From Candidatus Berkelbacteria bacterium (GTDB lineage Bacteria; Patescibacteriota; UBA1384; DTJR01): a DNA stretch of 40,856 bases. Below, piece after piece: positions 1 to 6,928 of this stretch. Position numbers and translations under genes: made by a program. Numbering within the stretch: position 1 is the first letter of the stretch; every line of letters begins with the position of its first letter. The notes under the pieces are model-generated. The model did not search any database and was not told the origin of the DNA. It worked only from the letters and a program-made list of their open reading frames with translations. The stretch spans positions 1 to 40,856 of the forward strand of contig JAPLVK010000020.1 of the NCBI GenBank assembly GCA_026397175.1, written 5' to 3'.

Positions 1-624
1 GGAATTGATAATCTTTCGGATTTGAGCGAGGGGATATTCGCCAGTTGAGTACATCTCAAAAGCCCGCTTGATATATTTTGCCTTTTCCTTGTCCACGGCG
101 ATACGACGGGCGTTTTTGTCGTTTATGTAGCCCAATGGCGCCCAAGCGGGCCATATTCCATTTCGTAATTTCTGGCGAATACCCCTCTTTATGTTTTCCG
201 AAAGATTATCCACATAATACTTTGATTGCCCAAAAGCTATAGACAACATAAATTTTCCTTGTGGTGTCGGATCAAACCAAAAAGTAGGAAATTTTAGCGT
301 GGTTATTTTGCCAGTATCTACCAGATAAATTATCCGTCCACCGTCTATGCTATTTCTCGCCAACCTATCAGGGTGCCACGCTAAAATTCCCTCGGCTTCA
401 TTTTTCTCTATGCTTGCCACCATATCGTTAAAAATATCTCGCCCCGGCTCTTTGGCGGTTTTGCTTTCCACAAATTCACGGACGATATTCAGGTTTTCTT
501 TTTTGGCATATTCTCGCAACTCAAACATTTGCGTCTCAATACTCAAAACCTGCCTTTCGGGTTCGTCCGTGGATTTGCGGGCATAGAGAAAAATCTTTTT
601 GGTTTGTAAATTTATGTTGTCCAT
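1..624 (-). CDS. Large serine recombinase, N-terminal 208 residues (cut by window edge)
   Basis: The reading frame opens at an ATG at 624 and runs without a stop to base 1, so the C-terminus lies outside. The N-terminal resolvase domain is clear: YARKS with the nucleophile Ser18, then the WHPDRLAR segment (Asp86, Arg87, Arg90) and the long-helix segment around residues 131-160 (GQSKYY, NIKRGIRQKL), followed by the start of the Recombinase domain (PLGY near 163-166). Enzymes of this family cut and rejoin DNA through a phosphoserine intermediate and integrate, excise or invert mobile DNA. It reads away from the restriction-modification cassette, and its start codon lies inside the first copy of a 61-bp tandem duplication. 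Family assignment is firm; its target site cannot be read from the sequence. Confidence 0.93.
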   Translation of the reverse strand, partial: MDNINLQTKKIFLYARKSTDEPERQVLSIETQMFELREYAKKENLNIVREFVESKTAKEPGRDIFNDMVASIEKNEAEGILAWHPDRLARNSIDGGRIIYLVDTGKITTLKFPTFWFDPTPQGKFMLSIAFGQSKYYVDNLSENIKRGIRQKLRNGIWPAWAPLGYINDKNARRIAVDKEKAKYIKRAFEMYSTGEYPLAQIRKIINS

Positions 625-741: not shown

Positions 742-914
742 GAAAGCGAAAGAAAAAAGATTGGTTTGCAAAATTTCATTTTGCCCGTGCTTTGCACGGC
801 GAACTTCCGCATTGCCGACCGCACTTTGGTTTTGGATTTCAAAAATGCCTTTAAAATTGCGGAAAAATACCATGCCGAGGCGCTTTGCGCCGAGGCGGCG
901 CTTTGCGCCGAGGC
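734..914. repeat. Cluster of short palindromes and a 17-bp tandem repeat, non-coding
   Basis: The stretch 742-1150 between the recombinase and the XRE gene holds no convincing gene. It carries hairpins with three-base loops: CTTTCGCT/AGCGAAAG at 734-752, CCGTGC-TTT-GCACGG at 785-799 and, further on, ATTTCGC-TTT-GCGAAAT at 1115-1131. A 17-bp unit GCGCTTTGCGCCGAGGC occurs twice, at 880-896 and 898-914. No function is apparent. Confidence 0.7.
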
Positions 915-944
915 AAATCCTTACGATTTCACAAAAAGTGAAAA

Positions 945-1114
945 TTGGCGGTGTTTTTTGAACGAAGTTCGAACTTTTTTTGACGAAAATCCGAATTCCG
1001 AATTTTAAAATCCAATCGCTCGGGCGGGCAAAAAGGAAGGGGGTTGGGGGGAAGGAATTTTTGCCCGCCCTCGCTTTCCGATTCCAATTTTTTTCCGCCG
1101 CCGCCGAATTTCGT
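945..1114 (+). repeat. Left arm of a 170-bp inverted repeat flanking the R-M cassette
   Basis: This segment is the reverse complement of 3804-3973 with 5 mismatches in 170 bases and no gap. Each arm contains its own hairpin with a 13-bp stem (GGGCGGGCAAAAA at about 1022-1034 against TTTTTGCCCGCCC at about 1059-1071; one base differs in the right arm). The repeat encloses the promoter and all three R-M genes. Confidence 0.92.
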
Positions 1115-1150
1115 ATTTCGCTTTGCGAAATGCGCCGCCAAGAAATTTGT

Positions 1151-1179
1151 TTGATTAAATTCATTATATTTGTTATCAT
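1151..1179 (+). promoter_or_regulatory. Sigma-70-type promoter of the R-M operon
   Basis: TTGATT at 1151-1156, 17-bp spacer, TATCAT at 1174-1179, about 50 bases before the XRE start codon. The small palindrome TACTAGTA at 1207-1214, between this promoter and the gene, is a possible controller-protein site. Confidence 0.45.
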
Positions 1180-1233
1180 ATTTATGAAGGGTTAAACAAG
1201 CACCCATACTAGTACTATCATACTTAGGAGACT

Positions 1234-1449
1234 ATGAAAAGTCAAAACAATAGCGAGACAATTGGGGATAAGATAAAACAGCTTAGAAATAAGCAAGGTA
1301 TAACGCAGGATGAATTGGCGAGAAAATCCGATCTTCCCTACACAACGCTGACTAAAATTGAAACAAATGTCATTACTAAGCCGTCAATTCAAACTGTTTC
1401 AAAAATTGCACAAGGCTTAGGAATTACAATTGATAGTTTAATGAAATAA
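1234..1449 (+). CDS. XRE-family HTH regulator, probable R-M controller protein
   Basis: A 71-residue protein made almost entirely of one Cro/C1-type helix-turn-helix: IKQLRNKQGITQDELARKS (helices 1-2) then TLTKIETN (recognition helix) and the TVSKIAQGLGI segment. Size and place match controller (C) proteins of type II R-M systems, which delay endonuclease expression until the host DNA is methylated. An AGGAG ribosome site (1226-1230) precedes the ATG. The methyltransferase gene begins five bases after the stop, implying co-transcription and coupled translation. The small palindrome at 1207-1214 would let it bind its own leader; this is inference. It could also be a general XRE repressor of the mobile element. 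Confidence 0.85.
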   Translation: MKSQNNSETIGDKIKQLRNKQGITQDELARKSDLPYTTLTKIETNVITKPSIQTVSKIAQGLGITIDSLMK

Positions 1450-1454
1450 AAATT

Positions 1455-2870
1455 ATGAATAGATCAGCGTTAAGCAAACAAATAAACAGAGAACAGATTG
1501 ATAGCTTGAAAAATGACACAAAAGCTCTTTTGTCATTTCTACAAGATCAAAACGATGGCACGATTGTTTATGTATTAGAGAAATTAGGACGATTAGAAAA
1601 TGGATATAGTAAGCAACCATTATTAAATCTATTAAACAATAATAACGAAACAATCAGATCGCTAGCTATAAAAAATCTTGCAAAAATAGGCGATGTTTCT
1701 TTACTAGATACTTTTGTAAATTTTGCTAAACAAGATGAAAGCACTGAGGTTAGACGCGAATCAGTTTCCGCTATTGGAAGATTAAGAAATGAAAAAACAA
1801 TCCCGACCTTAATTAAACTATTAGCAGATAGAGATCCAAAAGTTGTAATGCAAGCCATAAGAGGATTGCTTGTTTTTTCAAATAATAATCAAATTAAAAA
1901 AGAGTTGGCAAAGCTACTCGATCATCCTAATGAATTGATCAAAGAAGTTATTAGCAAAGAAATAAACGGGGTGAGTTATGGTTCAAAAGACAGTGGAAAA
2001 CACGATGAATTTCCGGCCTTTCTAAAAAATACTATTGTTCAAGGCGATGTTGTTGAAACATTAAAACATGTCCCCGATGAATCTATTCATCTAACCTTTA
2101 CTTCGCCACCTTATTATAATGCTAGAGATTATTCAATATATCAGAGTTATGATGAGTATTTGAAATTTTTAGAAGAAGTATTTAAGGAAGTTCATCGAAT
2201 CACAAAAGAGGGTAGATTTTTTGTACTTAATACCTCTCCAATTATTATTCCAAGAATAAGCAGGGCTCACTCCAGCAAACGCTATCCCATACCATACGAT
2301 ATACATCCGTTATTAGTAAAAATGGGTTGGGAATTTATTGATGACATAGTATGGGTTAAACCGGAAGCAAGCGTTAAAAATAGAAATGCAGGATTTTTAC
2401 AGCACAGGAAGCCTTTGGGTTATAAACCAAATGCTATTTCTGAAATGCTGATGGTGTACAGAAAGAAAACCGATAAACTAATTGATTGGAATATACAACA
2501 GTATGAGTGGGACAAGGTTAAAAAAAGTAAAGTTTTAGATAAATATGAAACGACAAATGTTTGGCGAATTGATCCTACATTTGATCGGATACATAGTGCA
2601 GTTTTCCCTATAGAATTATGCAACCGGGTTATTAAATATTATTCATTTGTTGACGATTTAATTTTCGACCCATTTGCAGGAAGCGGAACACTTGGTCGAG
2701 CAGCAGCTAATTTAGATCGGCATTTCTTTCTAACAGAAAAAGAGCCAAAATATGTAAGCCGCATGAAAGAAGATTTGATTAAAAAAGATAATCTATTTAA
2801 TGTAAAGAATTCGCAACCAAATTTTGTTGATATTAAAAATTTTATAACACTAATTAAAGGAACAATATGA
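1455..2870 (+). CDS. DNA methyltransferase (beta class, SPPY type) with N-terminal HEAT repeats
   Basis: Residues 35-175 form HEAT-type helical repeats (PLLNLLNNNNETIRSLAIKN; TIPTLIKLLADRDPKVVMQA). The catalytic domain follows: motif IV TSPPYYN with SPPY at 217-220, the VFPIEL segment at 383-388 (motif X region) and the SAM-binding motif I DPFAGSG at 405-411. Motif IV before motif I is the beta-class order; SPPY rather than DPPY favours N4-cytosine methylation, as in the CfrBI system. It should protect the recognition site of the adjacent endonuclease, whose start overlaps its stop (ATGA). A fused HEAT region of about 140 residues is not part of the usual compact enzyme and may serve in DNA binding or regulation (inference). 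Confidence 0.92.
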   Translation: MNRSALSKQINREQIDSLKNDTKALLSFLQDQNDGTIVYVLEKLGRLENGYSKQPLLNLLNNNNETIRSLAIKNLAKIGDVSLLDTFVNFAKQDESTEVRRESVSAIGRLRNEKTIPTLIKLLADRDPKVVMQAIRGLLVFSNNNQIKKELAKLLDHPNELIKEVISKEINGVSYGSKDSGKHDEFPAFLKNTIVQGDVVETLKHVPDESIHLTFTSPPYYNARDYSIYQSYDEYLKFLEEVFKEVHRITKEGRFFVLNTSPIIIPRISRAHSSKRYPIPYDIHPLLVKMGWEFIDDIVWVKPEASVKNRNAGFLQHRKPLGYKPNAISEMLMVYRKKTDKLIDWNIQQYEWDKVKKSKVLDKYETTNVWRIDPTFDRIHSAVFPIELCNRVIKYYSFVDDLIFDPFAGSGTLGRAAANLDRHFFLTEKEPKYVSRMKEDLIKKDNLFNVKNSQPNFVDIKNFITLIKGTI

Positions 2871-3781
2871 CAATAACTGAACAAGTAGCAAAAAATATAA
2901 TAAGAAAGTTACTAAAGGGCGAGGATTACAGAATTGAAGTTGTTACTCTTATTAATGCTGAATTTTTGCAGTTTGCGATTGGTTTTTTCAAACATATCGT
3001 TGATGCAAAATTGAAAAGTAAAGATATTACTGTTGATTGGTATAAAAAAGCATTTTTAGATCCGAATTTACCCGCAAATGAAATAGCAATCAACTCTGGT
3101 TTGAACACAAAAACAATTCATAACATGTTTAATTCTTCAACCAAAGAAATTGTAATTGACGCTTCAAATGAGCATTATGATCTTTTATACGAATCAATTA
3201 AAAACTTAGTTGATACCGAACACGATCTTGAGTTAACTTTAACGATTAAATTTAAAGGTGTTAGCGTTGATCTTAATGTTAGTGAAAGTTTAATTGTAAT
3301 AAATACATTGGCGGTAAAAAGATCTGCATTGAGAGGTGGCCTTTGGAGTACTGCCGGAAAAAGAGTCGAAAAGCCGTTAATGCAAACACTGTGCAAGTTG
3401 TATGGTGTGCCTGAACAAAATTATGCTTTAAAGATAAAGGGTAAAGAGATAGAAGAAGATGATTTTGAAAGAGAAATAGATTTCTATTTAATTGAAGGTA
3501 AAAATCAGCACAAGTGTGAAGTTAAATTAATGGGGCGGGGTAATCCTGAAAGTGCTGATGCAGTTATAGCTAGAGATAGTAGGGTTTTTGTGGCTGATAA
3601 ACTTTCAGATACGAACAAAAAACAACTAAATAGCCGGAAAGTTGAATGGGTTGAGCTAAGAAGTAATGGTGGATTTGAGAGATTTGATACAGTGTTAAAA
3701 AACTTGAAAATTCCACATACAAAATTACCAAGCAATATAGACAAAGAATTAGAAGTTGTATTTAAAGAAATTTTTAAATAA
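2867..3781 (+). CDS. Type II restriction endonuclease, CfrBI-like
   Basis: A 304-residue protein whose central block RGGLWSTAGKRVEKPLM (156-172) I recognise as typical of the CfrBI-type endonucleases. A PD-(D/E)XK active site fits EREID with Asp205 followed by CEVKLMGRGNP with Glu218 and Lys220. CfrBI cuts CCWWGG; whether this enzyme has the same site cannot be told. The start codon overlaps the methyltransferase stop in ATGA, and AAAGGA precedes it. The right inverted-repeat arm begins 22 bases after the stop, and its hairpin may serve as terminator. Full length with no frameshift, so probably active. Confidence 0.85.
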   Translation: MTITEQVAKNIIRKLLKGEDYRIEVVTLINAEFLQFAIGFFKHIVDAKLKSKDITVDWYKKAFLDPNLPANEIAINSGLNTKTIHNMFNSSTKEIVIDASNEHYDLLYESIKNLVDTEHDLELTLTIKFKGVSVDLNVSESLIVINTLAVKRSALRGGLWSTAGKRVEKPLMQTLCKLYGVPEQNYALKIKGKEIEEDDFEREIDFYLIEGKNQHKCEVKLMGRGNPESADAVIARDSRVFVADKLSDTNKKQLNSRKVEWVELRSNGGFERFDTVLKNLKIPHTKLPSNIDKELEVVFKEIFK

Positions 3782-3803
3782 GCGGCGCGCCAGTTTCACT
3801 GGC

Positions 3804-3973
3804 ACGAAATTCGGCGGCGGCGGAAAAAAATTGGAATCGGAAAGCGAGGGCAGGCAAAAATTCCTTCCCCCCAACCCCCTTCCTTTTTGCCCGCCCGAGC
3901 GATTGGATTTTAAAATTCGGAATTCGGATTTTCATCAAAAAAAGTTCGAACATCAATCAAAAAACACCGCCAA
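3804..3973 (-). repeat. Right arm of the 170-bp inverted repeat flanking the R-M cassette
   Basis: Reverse complement of 945-1114 with 5 mismatches. Beyond it, 3974-4060 holds nothing recognisable. The arms share their internal hairpin but not the sequences just outside them, so the repeat ends sharply at both sides. Confidence 0.92.
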
Positions 3974-4060
3974 GAATCTAAACTATGCCGTGACCGAATT
4001 TCACAGGTCTGCGAGTAAAATCCAACTCTAGATTATTTTATTTATAAAATTCTTCTCTTT

Positions 4061-4306
4061 TTAAACCGGACTGGCGGATGATTGCCACGATTGTGCCGGC
4101 TGGTTTAAAAGTTTATCGGAGAGATTCCCCCTACAGACCGTTTCTAAAAGTCCCCGTGCCGCTTCCTCCAAACTTTTTCTTAAAGCGACCGGATCTTTTC
4201 CTTCCTCGACAATATCCAAATCTAAACAAACGCCGGTATAATTTTTATCCCGCGCCCGTCTGTAAATAACAAATCTAAACTGTCCCTGTCTTTTGGTATT
4301 TTCCAT
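4061..4306 (-). CDS. HicB-like small protein (orphan antitoxin-type fold)
   Basis: An 81-residue protein with the pattern RFVIYRRARDKNYTGVCLDLDI, then EEGKDPVALRKSLEEAARGLLET. This matches the compact alpha/beta HicB-type fold in which a strand with GVCLDLD is followed by a helix. No HicA-like toxin is adjacent, and the usual C-terminal DNA-binding domain is absent, so it is better called HicB-like than an antitoxin. The start is supported by a promoter whose -10 box ends nine bases upstream, giving an almost leaderless mRNA. It is divergent from the gene at 4405 and shares the 98-bp spacer with it. Confidence 0.65.
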   Translation of the reverse strand: MENTKRQGQFRFVIYRRARDKNYTGVCLDLDIVEEGKDPVALRKSLEEAARGLLETVCRGNLSDKLLNQPAQSWQSSASPV

Positions 4307-4315
4307 TGTGATTTG

Positions 4316-4343
4316 ATTGTAGCAGGAAAATGTCTTGATTCAA
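4316..4343 (-). promoter_or_regulatory. Near-leaderless promoter of the HicB-like gene
   Basis: On the minus strand TTGAAT (4343-4338), 16-bp spacer, TACAAT (4321-4316). The ATG at 4306 follows after nine bases, so the transcript would have only about two or three bases before the start codon. Confidence 0.55.
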
Positions 4344-4370
4344 TCACATTGATAAAGTGCTAAAGGACTT

Positions 4371-4398
4371 TTGTTTTTCAAAAAATAAGTACTACAAT
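4371..4398 (+). promoter_or_regulatory. Leaderless promoter of the small membrane protein gene
   Basis: TTGTTT (4371-4376), 16-bp spacer, TACAAT (4393-4398); six bases later comes the ATG at 4405, so transcription should begin at or next to the start codon. No ribosome binding site is present. Confidence 0.6.
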
Positions 4399-4404
4399 AA
4401 AAAT

Positions 4405-4800
4405 ATGAATCGAAAACTAATTGTTGGAATTGTACTGGCAGTTGTAATTCTCGCAGGTATTATTTTGGTCTTGAGGGGAAATGAGGACGATTGGATTAAG
4501 GACTTAAACGGCGTTTGGGTAAAACATGGCAACCCCGCCAACACGCCGCAAGAAGTCCAAGATCAGCAGCAATTGATTGGGGAAGCACAACATTTATTTT
4601 ATGAAGCACAAGATAACAATCAGGATTTATCAAATGGCCCATGCCTCGGAGCAACTGGTGATTATGCCGTTGATATCGCCCACAATCCCCGCGAAGCGAT
4701 TGATGATCAAGCGCAAAACCAATGCGCGGATTATGCAAGCGGCAAACTTAAGCACTTCATCGAACTCGATTTGAACGGGACAGTGATTAGGACAATTTGA
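4405..4800 (+). CDS. Small protein with N-terminal membrane anchor
   Basis: The 131-residue product begins MNRKLIVGIVLAVVILAGI, one transmembrane or signal-anchor helix (about residues 4-23), followed by a soluble domain of about 105 residues with two cysteines in PCLGATGDY and NQCADYASG that may form a disulfide outside the membrane. An in-frame ATG at 4357 would add 16 polar residues, but that codon lies upstream of the promoter's -10 box, so 4405 is the better start. No family recognised. The gene ends 12 bases before a strong hairpin terminator. Confidence 0.7.
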   Translation: MNRKLIVGIVLAVVILAGIILVLRGNEDDWIKDLNGVWVKHGNPANTPQEVQDQQQLIGEAQHLFYEAQDNNQDLSNGPCLGATGDYAVDIAHNPREAIDDQAQNQCADYASGKLKHFIELDLNGTVIRTI

Positions 4801-4812
4801 AAAGTTAAGCAA

Positions 4813-4850
4813 ACGGGCCTTTCCCATCAGGGAAAGGCCCGTGTTTTGTT
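4813..4850. terminator. Bidirectional intrinsic terminator
   Basis: A perfect 13-bp stem (ACGGGCCTTTCCC at 4813-4825, four-base loop, GGGAAAGGCCCGT at 4830-4842) lies between the convergent genes ending at 4800 and 4861, followed on the plus strand by GTTTTGTT. It can end transcription from both sides, though the minus-strand tail is less T-rich. Confidence 0.85.
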
Positions 4851-4860
4851 GATTGGCTCG

Positions 4861-5922
4861 TTACGAGGCGAGACGATAGTGCAAAATCTCGCCTTGCATG
4901 AACGGCCTAACGACGATTGGGAAAGTTGGGACGCAAACCTCCCAATCCTCCTTGACCAGACGCACCGGTTTGCTTGGTATATTGGCAAGAGTGTGAAACT
5001 TGATGGCGTTACCCCGAACGAATCGTTCAAAGCGTTCGCGCCACTTCTTTCCCCCATACTCTTGGAAAAGCCAATATGTCAGCGGAATATCCACCTCATC
5101 CGGCGTAAAAATGCCGGACGGCGCTTCATCCCAACCCTTAAGCTTCGCTTCTTCCGGATGCGCCGCACAGTCGCGCCCCTTCATCGTCCCTGCCTCCGCT
5201 TCCATCATTGCCTCAAAAACCGCATCGCGGTTTTTCGATATCTGAAGGGGTGGCTGAACCTTGAGGAATGGATCTCTTTGACCATCCGAACCAAAGGTGT
5301 CGCAGATTGTCTTAAGTGCGCCATGCAGAGTTAGCGTCATTCCGACACTAAACCCCTGCTTCCGAAGCCGCTTGACCATCGCGATGCCGGCTTCGGTCGA
5401 AAAATGCTCCAGAACAAAGCGTTGATCCTTGGGATATCGAGTAATCAGCTTCTCGACAATTCCCAACATCGCCTCCTCCCCATCAAGCGGGTTGGGGGTT
5501 TTTCCCTGGCAGTGGATCAAAGTGGCTTTATCGCACTTACCGGCCATTTTGATGACTTTCAGGAAGTTTTGGTCGCTGAAATCCTCGATACCGTGCTTGC
5601 TGTTGGTCGTTACGCCGAGAGGAAGAATCTTGAGAGCCCAGAAATGGTCCCGGGCTAATCTGATTTCCTTTGAATCGGTGTCAGGCGTGACCTGAATGGT
5701 CATAAGATACCGAGGACCACTCTTACTTTTTGTTGCTACTAGTTGCTTCTCGTACAAAGACGCCATATCACGACTGGTGATTGGCTCTTTCAGATTCGGC
5801 ATTGGTACCGTATAGAGACAAAGTCCCATATGCGGCGCAACCGACTCGAACATCTCCCCCTCGCGCCAGTGGTCGTGCATTTGGCAAAAACGCGGGACCT
5901 CTATGTGACCTTTGTGAGGCAT
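4861..5922 (-). CDS. pyrC: Dihydroorotase (PyrC type)
   Basis: The 353-residue product carries all catalytic elements of class II dihydroorotase: HDHWREG (His16, His18 metal ligands, Arg20), MPN (Asn43, substrate), carboxylated-lysine position Lys98 in ALKILP, TTNSKHG (Thr105-Thr106 of the mobile loop in E. coli PyrC), His137, His173 in LEHFST, and Asp251 with His255 in RDCAAH. It should interconvert carbamoyl-aspartate and dihydroorotate in UMP synthesis. ATG 5922 is preferred over 5976 because GGAAAGGA stands just before it and it leaves a 22-base gap to the upstream dihydroorotate dehydrogenase-like gene. The pair makes successive pathway steps. Its base composition is richer in GC than the flanking genes. 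Confidence 0.9.
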   Translation of the reverse strand: MPHKGHIEVPRFCQMHDHWREGEMFESVAPHMGLCLYTVPMPNLKEPITSRDMASLYEKQLVATKSKSGPRYLMTIQVTPDTDSKEIRLARDHFWALKILPLGVTTNSKHGIEDFSDQNFLKVIKMAGKCDKATLIHCQGKTPNPLDGEEAMLGIVEKLITRYPKDQRFVLEHFSTEAGIAMVKRLRKQGFSVGMTLTLHGALKTICDTFGSDGQRDPFLKVQPPLQISKNRDAVFEAMMEAEAGTMKGRDCAAHPEEAKLKGWDEAPSGIFTPDEVDIPLTYWLFQEYGGKKWRERFERFVRGNAIKFHTLANIPSKPVRLVKEDWEVCVPTFPIVVRPFMQGEILHYRLAS

Positions 5923-5944
5923 ATCTGTCCTTTCCGGCAAGTCC

Positions 5945-6928
5945 TTAACGGACCTCCCACTCGATTTTGTCGGCACGAGAAATGACTTGGTTTAGCCACC
6001 ATCTAAACGGATAGAGAGTCGGCAAAATCCCGATTGAGACAAGGTCGGCTCCGGCGTTGCGAAACCGATCTATGTCCCATGGAGCCAGAATCCCGTTTCC
6101 GCCCATCAGGATGACTTTTTTGTCCGCCTCTCTGATCTGCCTGACTATGCGCAGCGCATATTTGCGGCAGCGGTTTCCGGACCAACCTCCTTCGGTAAAT
6201 CCTCGCTTTTTGAGGATTGATTCCTTGCTCCACCAATAGCTCAACCACACCTCGTCGTTTTCGGCCATAAAGGCGTGAGGGATGGCATTGCACGGCGCAA
6301 CTAGATCAAAGTATCCCGCAAGTGTCAGTACAAACTCAAGTTCGGTGACCGGAGAGCAGTTGAAGCCGATTGGACCGCCGATTCGGCGCAAAATTCGCGC
6401 CTCCTCGATGATCTCTTGGGTGAAAGTCGAGCGATGCTTCACATTCGGACAGCCACCATTCAACATCACCCCGGGCTTGATCCGAAGAGTCGGAAAGTAC
6501 TGCTGGCAAGCGCTAGCAAACTTCTCGGTCTGCGCGATTCTACCCTCGGGCGTGTCGGCGTTAGCCAAATACGAGATCCAGAAATTGTTCTCTTCGCCTC
6601 GCCAAATGCCGCCATCGAAATACTTCTCGTAAGACCAGCAAGACAGTCCGACTGCGTTTTGGGCGTGAGCCGTGATAGGATCAGCCACGATACAGCGCGG
6701 TAAAAACTCGATCGGCGTTACACCGTCTGCCCGAAGCGGCATGTTGCCTTTGCTGCCATCCGTGATCGTCTTCATCTGCTTCGTTACCCGATCGTCGTTG
6801 TACCAGCCGCGGACACCTCGCCACCACCAGTGTTTATGGTAGGGATAACCGCCACCGTCAATGTTGGCTGCTCCCGATGCGCAGAAAATCCTGCGATAGG
6901 GAACTCCACCGATCGCGATGTCTCCCAT
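5945..6928 (-). CDS. pyrD: Dihydroorotate dehydrogenase-like flavoprotein (divergent PyrD)
   Basis: A 327-residue TIM-barrel protein. Family marks are VTKQMKT (48-54), GNMPLR (61-66) and NAVGL (91-95), the substrate segment NGGCPN (Asn157, Cys160, Asn162), GGWSGNRCRKYALR (247-260) and the phosphate-binding ends MGGNGI (275-280) and SIGI (298-301). Cys160 sits where class 1 enzymes have their catalytic base. The family pattern VKLSP, whose Lys contacts FMN and orotate, reads FNCSP here (Asn190), a notable change. It would oxidise dihydroorotate to orotate, the step after the neighbouring dihydroorotase, but because of Asn190 a different dihydropyrimidine substrate is possible. A strong AAAGGAGGA site (about 6935-6943) fixes the start; its first bases can pair with TCCT just downstream. 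Confidence 0.8.
   Translation of the reverse strand: MGDIAIGGVPYRRIFCASGAANIDGGGYPYHKHWWWRGVRGWYNDDRVTKQMKTITDGSKGNMPLRADGVTPIEFLPRCIVADPITAHAQNAVGLSCWSYEKYFDGGIWRGEENNFWISYLANADTPEGRIAQTEKFASACQQYFPTLRIKPGVMLNGGCPNVKHRSTFTQEIIEEARILRRIGGPIGFNCSPVTELEFVLTLAGYFDLVAPCNAIPHAFMAENDEVWLSYWWSKESILKKRGFTEGGWSGNRCRKYALRIVRQIREADKKVILMGGNGILAPWDIDRFRNAGADLVSIGILPTLYPFRWWLNQVISRADKIEWEVR

Follow-up and report, generated by a model that had tools for sequence, protein, structure and literature searches.

A HEAT-repeat domain marks a widespread clade of CfrBI-related restriction methyltransferases and may serve as an accessory DNA clamp

A Type II DNA methyltransferase encoded by Candidatus Berkelbacteria carries an N-terminal HEAT-repeat domain which, as judged from sequence comparison, marks a separate clade and is not a general feature of CfrBI-type enzymes. 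This HEAT clade is widespread and represents a branch, apparently not described before, of an otherwise known type of restriction system. The role we favour for the domain, with a probability of about one half, is that of an accessory DNA clamp that helps the methylase to protect host DNA from its partner nuclease. The window, that is, the whole stretch of DNA analysed here, is a contig of 40,856 nucleotides (JAPLVK010000020.1, assembly GCA_026397175.1). An earlier note, made from its letters, had described the first ~175 residues of the protein as HEAT-type repeats preceding a beta-class methyltransferase with an SPPY motif that is standard in all other respects, and had suggested a role of this extension in target search, in endonuclease binding, or as a DNA clamp.

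The methyltransferase (M) gene lies at 1455..2870 on the plus strand and encodes 471 aa from an ATG start. Its HEAT domain (1518..1970), made up of five A/B helix pairs that span about residues 22-172, is followed by a poorly conserved linker (1971..2021, residues 173-189) and by the catalytic MTase domain (2022..2789, residues 190-445), as defined by the Pfam N6_N4_Mtase match and by invariant columns; all three lie on the plus strand. Pfam HEAT_2 matched residues 85-163 (2.4e-18, 66.7 bits against a curated cut-off of 27.7), Pfam HEAT matched the same ORF at 2.7e-10, and N6_N4_Mtase matched residues 211-438 at 1.6e-39. In an AlphaFold2 model based on a 76-row alignment (mean pLDDT 83.1, pTM 0.79), helices run across residues 3-171 and are followed by a methyltransferase fold; the helices are predicted to form anti-parallel pairs, giving five HEAT repeats of which the first begins at about residue 22. 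Structure comparison with VIA-align superposed residues 15-173 on designed alphaRep HEAT proteins (Z 17.3, rmsd 2.6, 152 aligned) and residues 191-469 on the beta-class methylase TTHA0409 (2zif; Z 26.5, rmsd 3.0, 237 aligned). CcrM (6pbd, Z 23.4) and PvuII (1boo, Z 20.9) share the MTase fold as well, but the alignments with these three enzymes start at residue 189-191 of the methylase and include no HEAT part. The Pfam scores, the model and the structure comparison rule out a chance or compositional match, and their agreement bears out both the proposed extension and its boundary.

The remainder of the protein is indeed an otherwise standard SPPY enzyme, according to the N6_N4_Mtase match, the TTHA0409 alignment and the order of its motifs, with motif IV (SPPY, 2103-2114, plus strand) preceding motif I (DPFAGSG, of the DPFxGSG type), as in beta-class amino-methyltransferases. 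From the SPPY motif we presume an N4-cytosine product. The presumed target-recognition loop (2364..2432, plus strand, residues 304-326, ...VKNRNAGFLQHRKPLGYKPN) is mostly invariant across the HEAT clade and differs in CfrBI-type enzymes; the part of the model with lowest certainty, residues 306-325, falls within it. Conservation scores were 1.81 for the linker, 2.56 for the HEAT domain and 3.50 for the MTase domain.

Upstream of M, an Xre/Cro-type HTH regulator, the probable controller (C) gene, is encoded at 1234..1449 (plus strand, 71 aa; Pfam HTH_3 2.6e-16, PADLOC Control_protein 7.6e-11), a position typical of C-protein-controlled restriction-modification systems. Downstream, a CfrBI-family restriction endonuclease (R) gene occupies 2867..3781 on the plus strand (PF09516, 3.6e-25) and adjoins the methylase as in CfrBI-type systems; M and R are co-directional, and the start of R overlaps the stop of M (ATGA). 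The locus is therefore a C-M-R Type II cassette. In PADLOC, the model PDLC03496 (REase_II) matches the endonuclease over almost its full length (8.5e-111) and PDLC03276 (MTase_II) aligns with methylase residues 71-436, thus extending into the HEAT part; both models come without a name, a target or a HEAT annotation, and the clade is already represented there in this anonymous form. A comparison of the endonuclease model with the PDB gave no match at E 0.001 or better, with MspJI and FokI appearing as weak rows only.

The cassette is enclosed by inverted repeats of 170 nt, with the left arm at 945..1114 (minus strand) 97% complementary to the right arm at 3804..3973 (plus strand), and a serine recombinase frame lies beside it at 1-624 (minus strand; Resolvase PF00239, 2.5e-20), where the window boundary truncates it. 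A 97.7% identical copy of the cassette was found in another contig (L010), in which homology stops exactly at the end of the right arm, window position 3973. Relatives of the repeat adjoin the cassettes of L011, L018 (on both sides) and L021, and protein identity to a Taylorbacteria genome reaches 97%. The inverted repeats, the L010 copy, the repeat relatives at other cassettes and the Taylorbacteria identity together indicate that the unit was transferred recently. The source genome (1.0 Mb, 27 contigs) contains one M match and one PF09516 match, and among 379 sampled genomes of the phylum it was the only one with PF09516. Nothing matching the window R was found in the plasmid collection, nor the cassette in E. 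coli genomes, and 80% of the M query was covered by none of 160 matching plasmid records and none of 199 matching phage records. In L018 the repeats flank the C-M-R genes plus an SDH-type protease gene. A second inverted pair in the source genome (contig C15, 14645-14754 and 17531-17640; L116), 82% similar, encloses other small ORFs, among them one that weakly matches a zinc ribbon. As judged by eye, each of the two pairs has a truncated recombinase-like frame nearby. Candidate phyla bacteria thus seem to harbour a family of cargo cassettes bounded by inverted repeats.

The classical CfrBI systems, represented by enterobacterial plasmids (L007, L008), recognize CCWWGG. Their MTase domain is 51-51.5% identical to that of the window over residues 190-447, and their endonuclease belongs to the same Pfam family, PF09516. 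However, this endonuclease is merely 23% identical to that of the window, the recognition loop is unlike the window's, and the N-terminal domain, of ~110 aa, has no HEAT match and no counterpart in the window methylase. The CfrBI M and R genes are also divergently oriented (PMC12707154), whereas divergent genes with overlapping promoters are absent from the window cassette.

The classical N-domain of L007 and L008 is shared by L108 and L111 and partly by L109. In a 92-row tree, 85 HEAT rows separated from seven non-HEAT rows with a split support of 100/99; in a second tree, an open fork placed the divergent viral HEAT rows L176 and L187 beside the classical clade. The earlier note had stated that its reading would fail if every CfrBI-type methyltransferase regularly had the extension, a view that the different N-domain of L007, L008, L108, L109 and L111 and the 92-row tree rule out. 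The extension is regular in one whole clade and no peculiarity of one genome. A search of published papers, for the most part from outside the subscription journals, revealed no account of a restriction system with a methylase fused to HEAT repeats, and neither a structure nor biochemical work nor a target site was found for the HEAT clade. Papers listed for solo methyltransferases and the evasion of restriction contained nothing of use.

A scan of genome contigs yielded 517 relatives. Those analysed are the best 80 by full-protein score, so that HEAT-less cellular kin could hide among the rest. The alignment comprises the window and 75 of these 80, after removal of L010, which is identical to the window, and of four cut loci, namely L033, L060 and L077 (3' end) and L085 (5' end). 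All 76 aligned sequences match both HEAT_2 and N6_N4_Mtase, hence the search for the same domain order proposed in the earlier note found it recurring throughout, and a fusion private to the source genome is ruled out. By record title, the aligned sequences belong to candidate phyla bacteria, DPANN and Altiarchaeal archaea, Bacteroidota, Ignavibacteria, Chloroflexi, Spirochaetes, Microcystis, Jettenia, Pseudomonadota and others. The clade R gene was matched in 72 of the 80 loci; five of the other eight (L033, L048, L060, L077, L078) end at or near a contig edge, and the remaining three (L041, L054, L062) have no adjacent R match. For L041 a match occurs elsewhere in the genome, further along the same contig; a PF09516 profile search of the L054 and L062 genomes found none, with controls that also gave no match for part of the search. 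A C-like HTH gene precedes M in 9 of the 80. In L054 a 222-aa ORF without Pfam or PADLOC match lies about where the endonuclease would be (5798-6466), possibly encoding a different nuclease, and in L025/L097 the endonuclease downstream of an intact HEAT methylase is broken into three frames.

Since this first list was ranked by full-protein score, a second sampling was carried out through the endonuclease family PF09516 instead of M. PF09516 was present in 8 of 395 Bacteroidota genomes, 7 of 251 Chloroflexota genomes and 1 of 398 Pseudomonadota genomes, the last being the centre of its sample. Apart from the centre, all six Bacteroidota loci with a readable methylase carry HEAT, L105 ending before M. 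Among Chloroflexota, again apart from the centre, HEAT is present in L106, in L107 and, in a different frame from the MTase, in L110, while L108, L109 and L111 carry the classical N-domain in its place. A query with the MTase part only, run against 178 Bacteroidota genomes at E 1e-40, gave three matches, one of them the centre, all in frames of HEAT length (468-474 aa). The HEAT-MTase linker of L110, a minus-strand gene, contains 15 consecutive G on the coding strand (~3063-3077), a possible phase-variable switch or assembly error. Another fusion was seen in the candidate-phylum genome of L002, where a LexA protein (DNA-binding domain and S24 peptidase) is joined to an N6_N4 methylase (868-2280, plus strand) beside a BsaWI-type endonuclease (2311-3126, minus strand); the pair is a possible SOS-responsive restriction system, and nothing obvious on LexA-methylase fusions stood among the papers listed by a literature search.

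Two alignment-based scans of IMG/VR returned 8 and 79 viral relatives; an earlier scan with the single window protein had given one short match only. The resulting 85 viral rows (L117-L201) include partial genes and duplicate contigs (L125 = L120, L126 = L117, L127 = L121). The HRKP loop motif occurs in 66 of the 85. Only four of these 66 have HEAT (L117 with its duplicate L126, L118 and L119), and none of the other 62 showed a clade R match within the locus stretches examined. Most HEAT-less viral rows are placed outside the HEAT clade in the second tree, in which L085 and L098 are labelled as lacking HEAT only because their loci end within the gene. Two rows, L120 and L121, fall inside the clade and, because they occupy two positions with starred branches between them, represent two independent losses of HEAT in viral solo methyltransferases. 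Both are 62% identical to the window MTase and start at the MTase boundary, right where the preceding open frame ends; Pfam HEAT was found neither in the two proteins nor elsewhere in their loci. They keep the loop as ...QHRKPL[AG]YKPN. PF09516 gave no match in their own contigs, which may be fragments, in a search whose controls also gave no match.

If these viral enzymes are active, the core responsible for catalysis and recognition probably does not need the HEAT domain, since L120 and L121 dropped it and retained the same presumed recognition loop. For the same reason a part of HEAT in target specificity is weakened, and with it the target-search role in that sense. As related virus enzymes have dropped the domain at least twice, it is suggested that HEAT helps in living with a cutting enzyme rather than in marking itself. 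HEAT is nevertheless kept without R in viral L119 and in cellular L054 and L062 (Microcystis), and L118 keeps it with an R remnant of only 28 model positions. In the L118 viral contig, a single 569-aa ORF (3671-5377) combines HTH, HEAT and MTase.

Conservation and charge of the helices were computed over 62 sequences under 90% identity. In repeats 2-4 the B helices are more conserved than the A helices (2.86/3.28/3.48 against 2.04/1.60/2.18) and more positive, with net charges per sequence of +2.69/+1.68/+1.76 against -0.23/+0.34/+0.47. R68, K73, K77, R101, E102, S105, R109, Q133 and R136 are invariant in the 76 aligned rows from the best 80 of 517. By sequence spacing, K73/K77, R101/S105/R109 and R136 are four residues apart or at matching positions of successive B helices. 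The conserved surface would be a basic and polar stripe on the B helices (K73, K77, R101, E102, S105, R109, Q133, R136), which we infer to be oriented towards the active site. L176 and L187, in which Pfam HEAT is no longer detected, lost R68, D127 and P128 and kept K73, R101, E102, S105, R109, Q133, R136, N159 and E160; the persistence of this signature speaks for a face with a function and against a spacer.

Distance partial correlations were calculated over 59 taxa. The HEAT domain evolves fastest, with a median pairwise identity of 0.45, compared with 0.74 for the MTase domain and 0.65 for R. The partial correlation between HEAT and MTase given R was 0.62, that between MTase and R given HEAT 0.45, and that between HEAT and R given MTase 0.18, with a permutation value of 0.006. 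With 0.62 as against 0.18, HEAT belongs mainly with its own methylase, next to a possible minor link with R.

According to the reading as an accessory clamp, the MTase domain, of about 280 aa, would recognize and methylate its site by itself, and the HEAT solenoid would be a largely sequence-independent clamp whose basic stripe on the B helices holds the duplex backbone beside the active site. Such a grip on flanking duplex might raise affinity or residence time and make marking faster and more complete, allowing the methylase to win the race against the co-expressed endonuclease; a virus marking only its own DNA could do without it. This reading is supported by the presence of HEAT in all 76 aligned sequences and in the six Bacteroidota loci reached through R, by the conserved and positive B helices, by the signature retained in L176 and L187, by the losses in L120 and L121, which kept the loop and show no CfrBI-family match in their contigs, and by the coupling of HEAT to its own MTase far above that to R. 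Among the roles proposed in the earlier note, the clamp is thus the one that the putative basic stripe favours. It is weakened by residues (K77/R109, R100/R101) that partly coincide with common HEAT-repeat letters of an alphaRep-like consensus, and by the acidic or polar nature of E102, S105, Q133, N159 and E160, as in a protein-binding face. AlkC and AlkD provide a functional comparison, being DNA glycosylases with a HEAT-like solenoid and a basic surface, although they are repair enzymes and not methylase modules. According to PMC4433238, AlkD uses a concave surface with positive charge to bind DNA, whereas HEAT-repeat proteins of the ordinary kind lack DNA affinity; the analogy therefore supports but does not prove a clamp, and the second statement counts against it. 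AlkD was absent among the structure-comparison matches listed, which does not exclude kinship.

HEAT solenoids usually bind proteins, and the domain might instead be a docking surface for, or a brake on, the partner endonuclease, so that M and R form a complex in which cutting is restrained or the two activities are coupled. Wherever a clade R gene lies next to a readable methylase, HEAT is there too, both among the best 80 of 517 and in the loci sampled through R in Bacteroidota and Chloroflexota, and both losses occurred in contigs without a CfrBI-family match. The residual HEAT-R co-variation, small but above permutation, lends a little support to endonuclease binding, as raised in the earlier note, and detracts to that extent from a clamp. 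Yet it lies far below the values for MTase-R and HEAT-MTase, and the domain and its signature are retained in the R-less Microcystis L062 and viral L119; docking is hence considered unlikely, although the same R-less loci, with L054, also weaken the clamp, as HEAT does not simply follow R. A regulatory module, with M binding its own operon or the C protein, is quite improbable. It would suit the three-part ORF of L118 and the HTH gene ending just before M in the window, and M.SsoII, another Type II methylase with an extra N-terminal region, uses it to regulate transcription, although it is a C5 enzyme (PMC3978073). A C-like gene nevertheless precedes M in only 9 of the best 80 of 517, in a scanned set where HEAT is universal. 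To our knowledge, HEAT is not a promoter-reading fold. Least probable is a domain without ligand that merely stabilizes the methylase fold or dimer, as might be expected from its faster evolution and its dispensability in L120 and L121; a spacer would not need the invariant surface-type signature that outlives the decay of the HEAT consensus in L176 and L187.

A broader proposal, which we hold tentatively and consider doubtful, regards HEAT as a dedicated coexistence module of self-mobile restriction cassettes. It would tie methylation to whether the partner nuclease is present, either through a DNA clamp on sites that are fresh or unmethylated or through restraint of R. Viruses would then repeatedly capture the methylase, discard HEAT and keep the bare enzyme of the same specificity as an anti-restriction gene.

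These results define a broad Type II clade that spans candidate phyla bacteria, DPANN archaea, Bacteroidota, Chloroflexota and others, and whose methylase carries a conserved non-catalytic module without an assigned role. The viral losses of HEAT constitute a natural experiment, by which the role of an accessory domain in a restriction methylase becomes testable with matched full-length and bare enzymes.
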